Assembly: GCA_029263295.1 (NCBI GenBank)
Contig: JAJCXT010000011.1
Span: 1 to 64,000 of the forward strand
DNA: 64,000 bases
Direction of reading: 5' to 3'
Origin: Acidobacteriota bacterium
GTDB lineage: Bacteria; Acidobacteriota; UBA890; WLXD01
The position numbers were made by a program, and so were the translations under genes. Positions 19,700 to 26,222 of this stretch are shown here, piece by piece; the stretch's first letter is position 1; each line of letters starts with the position of its first letter. The notes under the pieces are model-generated. The model saw nothing but the letters and a program-made list of their open reading frames with translations, was not told the origin of the DNA and did not search any database.

Positions 19700-19863
19700 C
19701 TTGCCGTGGCCATGACCCGTCAGGTGAATGTGACGGACGACGCATCGCAGATGCCGGTGTCGGAGCTCCTGAACCGGCGCCGCCGGGCCCAGTCCGGGGC
19801 TCGGTCGCGCGGCCGGTTTAAGTGTCCTTTACGTAGACTTCACGGACGCTTAACTGGATAGTG

Positions 19864-19988
19864 ACACCGTCGGATGCCGACTGGTGTGACACTCCCTGGT
19901 GTGGGCCCGGAGAGCATCTTGAGCTTCTCCTGGGTGGCATGAAAACGCACAAGCCCCTGAGCCGAGAAGCTGCGATAGCAGCCGGGCT
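19864..19988 (+). promoter_or_regulatory. Highly structured 5' leader of the pst operon
   Basis: Three hairpins lie in succession before pstS. The first, 19864-19887, pairs ACACCGTCGG with CCGACTGGTGT around the loop ATG with one bulged T. The second, 19909-19930, pairs GGAGAGC with GCTTCTCC. In the third, GCTGC-GATA-GCAGC (19969-19982) is enclosed by AGCCC (19952-19956) and GGGCT (19984-19988). The pstS start follows 26 bases later. No known riboswitch class fits, and no clear Pho box is visible. A role in controlling the operon is inference from the density of structure. Confidence 0.4.
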
Positions 19989-20013
19989 GAGCGGGGCGCA
20001 GGAGTCGATTCCC

Positions 20014-20880
20014 GTGAAGAAGTTCGTACTGGTTCTCGCTATGTTGACTCTGGCCGCGTGTGCTGGCGAGGGGGCGACGCGTACCCTGCTCCAAAACAAG
20101 GGGTCAGACACGCTCGTGAACGTCGCTCAGGCGTGGGCGGAGGAGTACGCCCAGGTTGCCCCGGACGTTGTCGTTGCCGTCACCGGCGGCGGTTCGGGGA
20201 CAGGAATTTCCGCGCTGATCAACGGTAGCGTCGATATCGCCAATGCCAGTCGCAAGATGAAACCTGCGGAGATCGCGTTGGCCGGTGACAATGGCGTGAT
20301 GCCGAAGGAGTTCATCGTCGGCTACGACGCGCTCGCCGTCTTCATCCATCCGGACAATCCCGCCGACGCGTTCACCCTCGCTCAGCTCGCCGAGATCTAC
20401 GGCGAGGACGGGAGCGTGGACAGCTGGTCGCATCTTGGCATCACCATCCCGGGCTGCAGCAGCGACGAGATCGTTCGCGTCAGCCGCCAGAATAGCTCCG
20501 GCACGTACGTCTACTTCAAGGAGGCCATTCTCGGCGAGGGCGACTACAAACTGGGCTCGCGCGACATGGCGGGGTCCTCGGAGGTCGTGGAGTTGGTCGA
20601 GAACACGCCATGCGCGATCGGATACAGCGGACTGGCGTACGCCACCGATCACGTCAAGATGCCGTGCCTGATTGCCGCGGAAGGAAGCGACTGCGTCCTG
20701 CCGTCGGTGGCGACCGCTATCGATTTTAGCTACCCGGTGGCGCGGCCATTGTTCATGTACACCAACGGCGAGCCGCAGGGTGCAGCCAAGGCCTACATGG
20801 ACTGGATTCTGGACGCCGAAGGGCAGTGCATTCTCCAGGAGAAGGGATACGCGCCGGTCCGAGCGGTCACTTGCTCCTGA
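20014..20880 (+). CDS. pstS: Phosphate-binding lipoprotein PstS
   Basis: Periplasmic receptor of the high-affinity phosphate ABC transporter. The GTG at 20014 starts a lipoprotein signal KKFVLVLAMLTLAAC with the acylated Cys near residue 16, and GGAG lies about 10 bases upstream. The mature part has the ligand loop NKGSDTLVNVAQAWAEEY and GGGSGTGISALINGSVDIANASR, both characteristic of PstS phosphate binding, then SRQNSSGTYVYFKE for the C-terminal lobe. At about 288 residues it is slightly short for the family. An in-frame ATG at 19939 would lengthen it but would bury the signal peptide. First gene of the pst operon. Confidence 0.92.
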   Translation: MKKFVLVLAMLTLAACAGEGATRTLLQNKGSDTLVNVAQAWAEEYAQVAPDVVVAVTGGGSGTGISALINGSVDIANASRKMKPAEIALAGDNGVMPKEFIVGYDALAVFIHPDNPADAFTLAQLAEIYGEDGSVDSWSHLGITIPGCSSDEIVRVSRQNSSGTYVYFKEAILGEGDYKLGSRDMAGSSEVVELVENTPCAIGYSGLAYATDHVKMPCLIAAEGSDCVLPSVATAIDFSYPVARPLFMYTNGEPQGAAKAYMDWILDAEGQCILQEKGYAPVRAVTCS

Positions 20881-20941: not shown

Positions 20942-22039
20942 ATGACCCACTATGAAGAGCGCCTCGAGGAAGACCTCGCACTTCTGAACCAGGCGATCGG
21001 CGAAGTTGCGCAGGTAGTCGAGCAGGCGCTCAAGGACGCCGTCTACGCGCTACTGAGTGGCGATGACGAGTTGGCCTACGCCGTCGTAATAGGCGACCAG
21101 TCGGTCAACAGGTCGGTGTATGAGATTGATCGCCGATGCCATGCCTTCATTGCGCGACATCTGCCGAGTGCACGCCACCTGCGGCGGGTATCGTCGATGC
21201 TGCGGCTCGACCTCGAACTCGAGCGGGTCGGGGACTATGCGGTGTCGATCGCGCGGGTGGCGGTAGGGCTGTCCGAGCCCCCCCCCGAGAGCGTCGCCAG
21301 CGATATCGATTGCATGGGGGATCAGACGCGCGAGGTGCTGCGGAAGTCGATCACGGCGTTCCTCGCAAGCGACGCCGAGCTGGCCCGGATCGCGAAAGAA
21401 TCTGCCTACGCGATCGAGAAGGCCTATGACCGGATTCCCAGCGCCGTGATCGCCGAGGGCGAGGCCGGCACGCGTCCACTGCCCGATCTGTTCGCCCTGG
21501 TGACCGTCTACCAACGCCTGACCCGCGTCCTGGACCAGACCGAGAACATCTGTGAGGACACGCTGTTCGCGGCAACAGGTGAGACGAAACGGCCGGTGGT
21601 CTACAAGATCCTGTTCGTCGATCAGCGTAACGTCTGTGCCAGCCAGATCGCCGAGACCATTGCACGCAAGGCGTTCCCCAATAGCGGCGAGTACTCGAGC
21701 GCCGGGTGGGGCTGGGAGCCCGGTGACGAGGTTGCCGCTGCGCTGGTGGAGTTCATGGAACAGAAAGGGCTCTCGTTGGAGCTGTCCCTGGCGTCGAGTT
21801 TGCCTGCGGCCGCCTACGAGCTCAACGACTATCACGTCATCGTCAGCCTCTGGGACGATGTGCGGGACCACGTTCCCGTGGCAGCGGGGGGCACCGTCTT
21901 CCTGAAGTGGGACGTGGGTCCGTGCCCGATGGCCTTCGATGGCGACGATGTCGAAGCGCAGCTGGACGACCTGCACCGGCGACTTGCCGGCGACATCGAG
22001 GACCTCATGGTCAGGCTCCGCGGCGAGGACGCCGACTGA
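20942..22039 (+). CDS. PhoU fused to an inactive LMW-phosphatase-like domain
   Basis: Residues 1-210 form two PhoU three-helix repeats. The metal-binding ERVGDYAVSIARV motif is intact in the first, while the second has only the weaker DQTENICEDTLF. PhoU represses PstSCAB transport and PhoR signalling when phosphate is ample. Residues 218-365 have the LMW-PTP/arsenate reductase fold pattern, but the P-loop reads FVDQRNVCASQIAE. Compared with the usual FVCTGNICRSPMAE, the nucleophilic Cys is Asp227 (codon 21620-21622) and the catalytic Arg is Ala233 (21638-21640). The flanking Asn, Cys, Ser, Gln and Ala-Glu are kept. The protein therefore probably binds an oxyanion or a partner rather than hydrolysing a phosphoester. 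It sits between pstS and pstC. Confidence 0.85.
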   Translation: MTHYEERLEEDLALLNQAIGEVAQVVEQALKDAVYALLSGDDELAYAVVIGDQSVNRSVYEIDRRCHAFIARHLPSARHLRRVSSMLRLDLELERVGDYAVSIARVAVGLSEPPPESVASDIDCMGDQTREVLRKSITAFLASDAELARIAKESAYAIEKAYDRIPSAVIAEGEAGTRPLPDLFALVTVYQRLTRVLDQTENICEDTLFAATGETKRPVVYKILFVDQRNVCASQIAETIARKAFPNSGEYSSAGWGWEPGDEVAAALVEFMEQKGLSLELSLASSLPAAAYELNDYHVIVSLWDDVRDHVPVAAGGTVFLKWDVGPCPMAFDGDDVEAQLDDLHRRLAGDIEDLMVRLRGEDAD

Positions 22040-22091
22040 CATGGCGGGGCAAGCGGAACCGAGGATCGGCGCGAGCGCGGGAAGGCGTCGA

Positions 22092-22993
22092 ATGATGGAC
22101 GACGCCGACCGTCGTGGCCTGGACTGGTACGTCGACAAGGCGGTTCAACTGGTCGTCTTCGTGGGCGGCATCTCTGCGATTGTCTTCATCTTCGGCATCT
22201 TCATCTTCGTCACCCGCGAGGGGATGGGCTTCATCTTCGGGCGATTCGACCTGGTCGAGTTCTTCACCTCACCGCGCTGGATGCCGACCTCGTCGTCGAA
22301 CCCGACCTACGGTGCTGCGGCGCTGATTCTGGGAACCGCAAGCGTGACCGGCCTGGCCATGGTTGTGGCGGTGCCTTTCTCGCTGGGCGCAGCCGTATAC
22401 ATCGGTGAGTTCGCCACAGGCAGAACGCGCGAGACGCTGAAGGTGCTCGTGGAACTGCTGGCGGCGATCCCGTCTGTCGTCTGGGGCTTCATCGGTCTGA
22501 GCATCATGAACGCGTTGATCGTCCGGATCTTCGACGTGCCGGTCGGTCTCAACGTGCTGAACGCCGGCATCATCCTCGGGCTTATGGCGGCGCCGATCAT
22601 GACGACGATTGCCGAGGATGCGCTGCGGGCGGTCCCCGATACCTACCGCGAGGCTGCCGAGGCGATGGGCGCGACGCGATGGCAGGTGATCTGGAAGGTC
22701 GTTCTGCCGGCCTCCAAGAACGGGTTGCTGGCGGCGATCCTACTGGGCGTCGGGCGTGGTTTCGGGGAGACAATGGCGGTGCTGATGGCGACCGGCCATT
22801 CGATCAACATCCCGAACAGCGTCTTCGACTCGGTTCGCGCGTTGACGGCGACCATCGCGGCGGAGCTGGGCGAAACCGCTGTCGGGTCGGATCATTACCG
22901 TGCGCTGTTTACGCTGGGCATCTTCCTCTTTCTGATCACGTTCCTGATCAACCTGACCGCCGACCTCGTGATCCGCGGCAGAGGTGACCGGTG

Positions 22994-22994
<1 letters not shown>
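22092..22994 (+). CDS. pstC: Phosphate ABC transporter permease PstC
   Basis: One of two membrane subunits of the phosphate importer. It has an N-terminal transmembrane helix and a long periplasmic loop (FITSPRWMPTSSSNPTYGA-like region), followed by the BPD permease domain with GEFATGRTRETLKVLVELLAAIPSVVWGFIGL and the EAA loop YREAAEAMGATRWQVIWKVVLPASKNGL, which docks to the ATPase. The ATG pair at 22092/22095 has a GGGAAGG box six bases upstream and was preferred. An in-frame ATG at 22041, directly after the PhoU-fusion stop, would add 17 residues. The stop overlaps pstA. Confidence 0.93.
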
Positions 22995-23868
<874 letters not shown>

Positions 23869-23875
<7 letters not shown>

Positions 23876-24690
23876 CCGGATCGATCATCGCTGCACCGGA
23901 CCCCAAGGTTGACGCGGGCTCGGATTCGCCGGGCCCCAACGTCAAGATCGCCGTGCGTGACCTGAACATCACGTATGGCGGTAAGCCGGCGTTGAGCAAC
24001 GTCAGCCTGACCATTCACGAGCACGAGATCTTCGGCGTTATCGGCCCGGCGAACAGCGGCAAGACCTCGTTCCTCAGGACCTTGAATCGTATGGACGAGC
24101 TCACCGACTCGATGGAGGTCGAAGGCGAGATTCGATTCAACGGCCGCGATGTCAAGGACTGGCGCAACCCCTACGCGCTGCGGCGGCGAATCGGCGTCGT
24201 ATTCCCGCTACCGGTGGGGTTGCCGATGAGCATCTACGACAACGTCGCGCTCGCGCCCAGACTGTCGGGCATTCGCAAGAGAGCGCAACTCGACGAGATC
24301 GTCGAGCGGTGCCTGGTACGGGCGGCCCTCTGGGACGAGGTGCGTGATCGGCTAGGGTCGCTCGGCAGTCTGCTGTCGGGCGGCCAGCAGCAGCGGCTGA
24401 CGATCGCCCGGGCGCTCTCACAGGACCCCGAACTACTGCTCCTCGACGAGTTCTCGATCGCGGTAGACCCGGTGACGACGATGCGCATCGAGGATGTGCT
24501 GAAAGAACTGCGCCAGGAGGTCACGATCGTGCTGGTTACCAACTTGGTGCAGCAGGCGCGTCGCCTGGCCAGTCGGACCGCGTTCTTCCTGATGGGGGAG
24601 TGCGTCGAGGTCAACGATACCGAGGCGATGTTCACCGGCACGGTGAAGGACCAGCGGACGCGCGAATATGTGGAGGGGCGTTTTGGCTAG
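23869..24690 (+). CDS. pstB1: PstB-like ATPase 1 with damaged Q- and H-loops
   Basis: ABC ATPase of the phosphate importer, clearly of the PstB family (TLNRMDEL, SIYDNVAL). Walker A GPANSGKTS (residues 59-67), signature LSGGQQQRL (169-177) and Walker B LLLLDEF with catalytic Glu194 are present. The Q-loop Gln is Pro113 (codon 24205-24207; VVFPLPVG instead of VVFQ.P.P), and the H-loop His is Asn225 (codon 24541-24543; VTNLVQQA instead of VTHNMQQA). Its own ATP site should therefore be poor at hydrolysis, but it can offer a normal LSGGQ to a partner. The partner encoded next lacks exactly that. Confidence 0.88.
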
Positions 24691-25531
24691 AGACGTGGGG
24701 ATTCCTGCCGAGCCCGCGGCGAACGAGGTCAGTGGACCGGAGAAGCTGGCAGAAGGCGCGCCTGGTGAGGCGGCGATCGAGACCCGGCAACTCAACCTCT
24801 GGTACGGCGATTTCCAGGCGCTGTTCGATGTCGACCTGCACATCAAGCAGGGAATCATTACGAGCATGATCGGGCCCTCGGGCTGCGGCAAGACGACCAT
24901 GCTGCGCACGGTCAATCGCATTATCGAGCGGCTACCCTACGTCCGCACCACCGGCGCGGTCTCAGTTCTGGGCCAGGACATCTTCGCGCCTGAGGTGGAG
25001 GTCCTGCAGGTGCGCCGCCATGTCGGCATGGTGTTCCAGCGGCCCAACCCGCTGCCCCTGTCGATCCGCGACAATGTGCTGTTCGGCTACCGGCTCCACG
25101 AGCCGGTAGCCAAGAAGATGAAGCGTGCCGAACTCGACGAGGTCGTGGAGGGCGCACTGCGGACCGTACTGCTGTGGGACAGTGTCAAGGACGGACTCAA
25201 CAAGAAGGCAACAGCGCTTTCACTCGAGCAACAGCAGAAGCTCTGCATCGCCCGGTTGCTGCCGCTCAAGCCCACTGTGCTGCTGATGGACGAGCCGTGC
25301 TCGGCGCTTGATCCGGCGGGGACGGAAGCGGTCGAAGAACTGATCTGGGGTCTACGCGGCGAGTACACGTTTCTCATGGTGACCCACAACATGGCCCAGG
25401 CCCGCCGCGCCAGCGACGAGTGCGTCTTCATGCTGCTGGGCAAGGTCATCGAGCACGCACGCACCGACGAGATCTTCGTCACCCCGCAGCACGAGACGAC
25501 GGCGGACTACATCGAGGGTCGCTACGCCTAG
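24683..25531 (+). CDS. pstB2: PstB-like ATPase 2 with degenerate signature motif
   Basis: Second PstB-family ATPase, overlapping pstB1 by eight bases. The TTG at 24683 was chosen because GGAGG lies six bases upstream (24672-24676). An ATG at 24668 would add five residues. Walker A GPSGCGKTT (64-72), Q-loop VFQRPNPLP (Gln119), Walker B LLMDEPCSALDP (Glu204) and H-loop VTHNMAQA (His235) are all canonical. The ABC signature is LSLEQQQKL (25217-25243) instead of LSGGQQQRL, losing both glycines that contact the ATP gamma-phosphate. With pstB1 it would make one canonical and one degenerate ATP site in a heterodimer. Confidence 0.88.
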   Translation: MARDVGIPAEPAANEVSGPEKLAEGAPGEAAIETRQLNLWYGDFQALFDVDLHIKQGIITSMIGPSGCGKTTMLRTVNRIIERLPYVRTTGAVSVLGQDIFAPEVEVLQVRRHVGMVFQRPNPLPLSIRDNVLFGYRLHEPVAKKMKRAELDEVVEGALRTVLLWDSVKDGLNKKATALSLEQQQKLCIARLLPLKPTVLLMDEPCSALDPAGTEAVEELIWGLRGEYTFLMVTHNMAQARRASDECVFMLLGKVIEHARTDEIFVTPQHETTADYIEGRYA

Positions 25532-25553: not shown

Positions 25554-26222
25554 CTATCGCGGCAGCTCGTACAGTGCTCGCAGCTTGGCAACATCTCCAG
25601 CCGAGACTCCGGCAATCTGGGCGATGTCTTCGCGCGTGCGGATTTGGTCGCGATAGCGCTGGAAGTAGCCGACGATGTCGCCGCCGTGTTGGAACGAGTA
25701 CATGATGTCTGCGTAGTCCGCCGTGTGAGCCAGTCCGAACGCGTGGCCGAGTTCGTGCAGGCAGGTCAGGTAGATGACGGCGTCGCGGAATAGGGGGTCT
25801 CGGCGTGCGCGGCGGTCGATCTCACGTCCCAATCCGCTCGTGTCGGGGACTACGAAGACAGCGGCGCCGCGTTTCTCGGCTAGCATGAAGGGCCTCATCT
25901 CGCCGTACAGGTTGTCCTGGCCCGACACCCAATACAGATGGATCAGCGCGCGCTCACGCTCGGCCGATGCCAACTCGAAACGACCCTCGGCGGCCGCCTC
26001 CCACGCGCCCAGCGCCCAAGCCGCGAGCTGCGAATCGCCGACCTGCGCCCCCGCGGCGGCGTCGTCACTGGCGGCAATGAAGAAGCCGATGGGCGTTCCG
26101 TTATCAAGTGCCTGATGCCAGTCGGGCTCTCCGGCGGCCTGTAAGGCTGCGGCGGGCTCACTTGCGCCCACCCAGGACGATGCCATTGATGCGAGCAGCA
26201 TCAACGCTGTCAATCTGAACAA
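25554..26222 (-). CDS. Secreted metzincin-type zinc metalloprotease
   Basis: A 222-residue protein with an N-terminal signal peptide ending near VGASEP. It has the metzincin zinc motif HELGHAFGLAHT, giving three histidines and the catalytic Glu, followed by the Met-turn ADIMYSF about ten residues later, as in matrixins. The segment before it, AAVFVVPDTSGLGREIDRR, resembles the upper subdomain strand of the fold. No prodomain or extra module is seen. The TTG start at 26222 overlaps a possible small upstream frame. It is convergent with the pst operon. Substrate is unknown. Confidence 0.8.
   Translation of the reverse strand: MFRLTALMLLASMASSWVGASEPAAALQAAGEPDWHQALDNGTPIGFFIAASDDAAAGAQVGDSQLAAWALGAWEAAAEGRFELASAERERALIHLYWVSGQDNLYGEMRPFMLAEKRGAAVFVVPDTSGLGREIDRRARRDPLFRDAVIYLTCLHELGHAFGLAHTADYADIMYSFQHGGDIVGYFQRYRDQIRTREDIAQIAGVSAGDVAKLRALYELPR

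Follow-up and report, generated by a model that had tools for sequence, protein, structure and literature searches.

A phosphate-import (Pst) operon lies within the 64,000-nucleotide stretch of an Acidobacteriota genome analyzed here (contig JAJCXT010000011.1; hereafter the window), with its genes on one strand in the order PstS, PhoU, PstC, PstA, PstB1, PstB2, so that two pstB genes close the operon. PstS, PstC and PstA each exceed the curated cut-offs of their families. PstB1 and PstB2 score 285.6 and 315.6 bits with the PstB profile TIGR00972, short of its curated cut-off of 343.2, yet this is by far the best-matching family for each. No further PstB-grade match was found in the window's assembly, which is 78% complete.

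In a dimer of the ATP-binding cassette (ABC) type, each ATP site is composed of the Walker, Q-loop and H-loop side of one subunit and the signature motif of the other. PstB1 retains Walker A (GPANSGKT, 24043–24066), the Asp-Glu of Walker B (DEFSIAVDP, 24445–24471) and an intact LSGGQ signature (24373–24387), but carries Pro for the Q-loop Gln (codon CCG, 24205–24207) and Asn for the H-loop His (codon AAC, 24541–24543). PstB2 is altered in the opposite sense: Walker A (GPSGCGKT, 24872–24895), the Q-loop Gln (FQRP, 25034–25045), Walker B (DEPCSALDP, 25289–25315) and the H-loop His (VTH, 25379–25387) are all in place, and the signature reads LSLEQ (25217–25231) instead of LSGGQ. These codons are exactly as given in a preliminary description of the locus, which had proposed an obligate heterodimer with one canonical site. 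The composite site formed by the PstB1 Walker side and the PstB2 signature is thus broken, while that of the PstB2 Walker side and the PstB1 signature is intact. AlphaFold models of the single chains have confidence (pLDDT) values of 88 for PstB1 and 82 for PstB2, and the best PDB match of PstB1 is E. coli PstB (9k3x, TM score 0.92). On the basis of these motifs and their conservation, we consider it probable (roughly 0.84) that this importer is powered by a PstB1–PstB2 heterodimer in which one ATP site is canonical and the other degenerate.

Table 1. Genes of the Pst operon in the window, with the evidence for each assignment.
Feature	Position	Strand	Evidence
PstS, periplasmic phosphate-binding protein	19861..20880	+	TIGR02136, 217.1 bits (cut-off 206.6 exceeded)
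PhoU with C-terminal LMWPc/ArsC-like domain	20942..22039	+	Pfam PhoU 1.1e-24, LMWPc 9.5e-8
PstC permease	22041..22994	+	TIGR02138, 274.1 bits (exceeds cut-off)
PstA permease	22991..23875	+	TIGR00974, 266.6 bits (exceeds cut-off)
PstB1, degenerate Walker side and intact LSGGQ	23869..24690	+	Codon check, homologue conservation, AlphaFold
PstB2, intact Walker/Q/H side and degenerate LSLEQ	24668..25531	+	Codon check, homologue conservation, AlphaFold

PstB2 has an alternative and probable start at TTG 24683, with GGAGG just upstream, which overlaps the PstB1 stop. Downstream of the operon, on the opposite strand (25554–26222), there is a weak match to a matrixin-type metalloprotease (Pfam PF00413, 7e-6).

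The complementary substitutions recur far beyond the window. In a PstB2 search of 396 genomes of the same phylum, close relatives were separable from ordinary PstB, and the adjoining PstB1 had Q to P, H to N and LSGGQ in 29/29 of the loci fetched in this way. Scanning named genomes with a PstB1 alignment gave 80 loci, and every readable neighboring PstB2 lacked the second signature Gly. The search for homologues with intact motifs and the test for co-conservation, both proposed in the preliminary description, therefore failed to refute its reading. The scanned loci belong to Acidobacteriota, Gemmatimonadota, Pseudomonadota (Accumulibacter, Dechloromonas, Chromatiaceae and Thiodiazotropha), Planctomycetota, Verrucomicrobiota, Poribacteria, Myxococcota, Bdellovibrio relatives, Nitrospirota, Bacteroidota/Rhodothermota and others, and overall the pair is spread over at least nine, about a dozen, phyla. 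A DNA pattern specific to PstB1 was present in 36/396, 24/399, 22/150, 12/109 and 3/106 genomes of five phyla, where the phylum of each set is taken from the named loci that served as centres. A search of a plasmid collection for plasmid-borne copies, or for named laboratory strains with the pair, found none; the best matches there reached 47–49% and were mostly annotated as ordinary PstB.

PstB1 precedes PstB2 on the same strand in all 107 uncut loci of a total of 109, the other two (L084 and L105) being cut by contig ends. As this order and the motif changes are constant, the pattern is not local damage. Across loci, PstB1 has Q to P (110/110), H to N (109/109) and the catalytic Glu (110/110); its LSGGQ is likewise constant (110/110), although one seed peptide of the PstB1-seeded search (GGQQQRLT) favors this motif, while the motifs of the partner were never selected. 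PstB2 retains the Q-loop Gln in 107/107 and the H-loop His in 103/104, but no readable sequence has kept the second signature Gly: LE, LD, LA, GE or PE stand in the GG position, the second residue being nearly always acidic. In these figures a few contigs are counted twice, as they appear under two identifiers (for example L008 and L036). With identical sequences removed there remain 114 PstB1 with the Q to P change (P type), 116 of the PstB2 type and 70 canonical PstB, and not one pair member is broken on both sides. The deviations are thus gathered in one composite site, faced by a changed signature, with the other site complete. The alteration of the Walker B Glu that is common, but not universal, in degenerate sites is lacking. 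Two genomes that seemed to hold half a pair (G115 and G349) were dismissed, both loci being cut by contig ends. The single PstB2 with Tyr for the H-loop His (L035, genome G048), a change that would harm the otherwise canonical site, comes from a genome that also has a canonical-grade PstB.

The near-complete relatives G007, G183 and G107, a complete Dechloromonas metagenome-assembled genome, and the Planctomycetota, Verrucomicrobiota and Myxococcota genomes examined have no PstB apart from the pair. In a sample of 80 Pseudomonadota, it is the sole PstB in 9/9 carriers, which may be related to one another, and a canonical PstB is present in 68/71 of the others. Some genomes hold both. Where a genome has no other pstB, as is often the case, the pair must be able to energize phosphate import, and together with the operon context this indicates that the system probably transports phosphate in the window's organism too.

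One membrane subunit also differs from that of ordinary systems. The coupling-helix EAA motif of PstC (REAAEAMGATRWQ, 22647–22685) is ordinary, whereas that of PstA (REACWNMGATRWQ, 23519–23557) is peculiar to P-type systems, the only ones with its Cys-Trp-Asn (CWN) signature. The Trp is found in about 99% of 104 P-type PstA, and canonical PstA has mostly Leu or Tyr at that position. Combined with the unusual, invariant Q-loop region of PstB1 (PLPVGLP), the CWN helix suggests that PstB1 docks on PstA. In clade I, evolutionary distances correlate more strongly between PstB1 and PstB2 (0.81) than between PstB1 and PstA (0.45) or PstC (0.47), the values for either ATPase with the membrane subunits being 0.45–0.62; co-evolution thus appears stronger within the ATPase pair than between it and the permeases.

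PhoU is modified in these operons as well. An LMWPc/ArsC-like domain occupies about residues 219–365 of the window's protein, with Asp for the P-loop Cys (LFVDQRNVCAS, 21611–21643). This fusion occurs in 46/59 P-type loci, in 0/55 canonical loci and in 0/4 of the A-type loci described below; the catalytic Cys is replaced by Asp in 46/54 fused domains and retained in one. By its sequence, the domain is a pseudo-phosphatase, conserved as a companion of the asymmetric motor, and a role in phosphate binding or signaling is a reasonable guess.

Eight tandem pairs of the window's phylum are milder (A type; L257–L260, L262, L263, L265 and L266). The first protein has Q to A and H to N, the second LSLEQ, LSLEE, LSGEQ or LSPEQ, the PstA coupling helix is ordinary and PhoU is unfused. 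In a tree built with the motif columns masked, all PstB1 of both types group together, as do all PstB2, forming sister clades beside canonical PstB. Support by the Shimodaira–Hasegawa-like approximate likelihood ratio test is 100 for each P type, 96 for the whole of PstB2 and 85 for the whole of PstB1. Since the clades separate even without the motif columns, the tree points to one ancient split; the milder pairs, which branch first, may be evolutionary intermediates. The loss of the second signature Gly is the constant feature of PstB2 in both types. Some loci contain a third ATPase. In four Poribacteria loci (L081, L082, L083 and L093) a PstB-like protein with Q to R, H to N and an LSIGQ or LSRGQ signature, degenerate on both sides, lies downstream of PstB2 and is followed by PhoU. 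A third nucleotide-binding domain (NBD) also adjoins the pair in L261 (G065:C172:600-1322) and in L100 (7744–8496), the latter strongly degenerate, with Q to T, H to N and the signature lost.

If PstB1 and PstB2 form a physical heterodimer, as the motifs suggest, the complete site would combine Walker A, the Q-loop, the catalytic Glu and the H-loop of PstB2 with LSGGQ of PstB1, and would hydrolyze ATP and drive transport, presumably as one hydrolytic site per cycle. The degenerate site, with the substituted Walker side of PstB1 facing LSLEQ of PstB2, would probably still bind ATP through its intact Walker A, hydrolyze it slowly or not at all, and keep the dimer joined during cycling of the canonical site. 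PstB1 would sit on PstA, with its system-specific coupling helix, and PstB2 on PstC. Pairing either protein with itself would leave both sites incomplete in the same way; only the heterodimer would contain a complete one.

Importers with two differing NBDs are known, such as OppD/OppF and RbsA-like double NBDs, some reported with a degenerate site; these are peptide and sugar importers of other subfamilies. The canonical PstSCAB of E. coli (PDB 9k3x, 9k3s) resembles the present system in its operon parts, PstB fold and profile family, but has one PstB, acting as a homodimer with two identical canonical sites, rather than two paralogues with complementary defects, and lacks both the specialized PstA helix and the PhoU fusion. 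Closer in the layout of their sites are exporters that combine a canonical composite site with a degenerate one (yeast Pdr5 above all, and TAP, MRP1, CFTR and TM287/288). In Pdr5, LNVEQ, with the second Gly changed to Glu as in LSLEQ, faces a Walker side that has lost its H-loop His (PMC7756269). The exporters belong to another family, have fused or half-size subunits and move their substrates in the opposite direction; moreover, their degenerate Walker side usually also loses the Walker A Lys or the catalytic Glu, while PstB1 keeps both and loses the Q-loop Gln. This layout is well known in drug and lipid exporters, but for phosphate uptake our literature search, with its poor coverage of subscription journals, found no report of asymmetric or complementary PstB pairs, in agreement with the preliminary description, which knew of none in the Pst family. 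The only studied tandem pair, pstB1–pstB2 of Enterococcus faecalis, likewise consists of adjoining genes with unequal roles in one pst operon (PMC12096839), but its proteins, unlike the window pair, have intact motifs and no complementary damage, and it is therefore not the same case.

An explanation of the pattern as decay, with PstB1 a duplicate on its way to becoming a pseudogene and its changes neutral, is easy to construct, as single-base changes suffice (CAG to CCG, CAC to AAC). It is nevertheless extremely improbable. The changes are fixed in over 100 loci from different phyla, the predicted PstB1 fold is intact, and many genomes have the pair as their sole PstB. The ratio of nonsynonymous to synonymous substitution rates is 0.037–0.147 for PstB1 and PstB2 alike, about 0.1 or less in most pairs, indicating strong purifying selection, with synonymous sites near saturation for the window pair. 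Recurrence in so many independent loci also shows the substitutions to be neither chance nor sequencing error, an objection anticipated in the preliminary description. A second explanation, that both composite sites hydrolyze ATP and the substitutions merely tune rate or membrane coupling, is improbable in our view, though less so. It gains from the intact catalytic Glu and Walker A Lys of PstB1 and from the near wild-type transport of MRP1 with H to N in its consensus site (PMC7756269), but does not account for why all three substitutions fall in the same composite site and leave its counterpart untouched. In addition, loss of the second signature Gly accompanies degenerate sites elsewhere, as in Pdr5 (LNVEQ, PMC7756269), and the signature is altered in all human degenerate ABC sites. 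Somewhat more plausible, but still unlikely, is that PstB2 drives transport in another arrangement, with PstB1 serving not as an obligate half of the motor but as a regulatory pseudo-ATPase, either swapping into the complex or signaling by way of PhoU. Pst complexes do signal via PstB conformation (PMC5775613), PstB2 is essential and PstB1 accessory in E. faecalis (PMC12096839), and most of these operons encode a PhoU joined to a dead phosphatase-like domain. However, a PstB2 homodimer would have LSLEQ in both sites, PstB1 always retains the perfect LSGGQ that PstB2 lacks, and the E. faecalis proteins are both motif-intact.

For the heterodimer with one canonical site, the comparative evidence of motif co-conservation, adjacency, sole-pstB status and selection bears out the preliminary description, and the co-evolution of the two ATPases and the dedicated PstA helix lend it further weight. 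An experimental parallel also counts in its favor: in E. coli PstB, the signature mutation Q160K, which affects both homodimer sites, abolishes transport (PMC5775613). Several points weigh against it. The evidence is comparative, with models of single chains; the loci were obtained by similarity, with a seed peptide that selects LSGGQ in PstB1; and distance correlation can stem from the shared inheritance of neighboring genes. Furthermore, given the tolerance of MRP1 for H to N and the Walker A Lys and catalytic Glu retained by PstB1, its site may not be inactive: it might bind ATP and even hydrolyze it slowly. The earlier proposal of a dead site thus stands as regards degeneracy, but not as regards certain loss of activity. 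The accompanying suggestion that this site senses phosphate is no more than a guess. More tentatively, and with considerable doubt, these operons could represent a separate, widespread Pst class defined by an asymmetric motor, the PstA CWN helix and, usually, the PhoU-pseudo-phosphatase, in which the degenerate site and the pseudo-phosphatase would form a phosphate-status sensor or a pump using one ATP per phosphate.

The persistence of one crippled ATP site in many ABC transporters has long been an open question, studied mostly in exporters. An asymmetric Pst system would place such a site in an importer with small soluble subunits, with canonical homodimeric relatives as controls and graded intermediates in the signature (LSGEQ, LSPEQ, LSLEQ) and the Q-loop (Q to A, Q to P). 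The polyphosphate accumulators Accumulibacter and Dechloromonas carry the pair, with no other pstB in the Dechloromonas genome, and it may thus bear on how phosphate uptake is powered and signaled in environmentally important bacteria.
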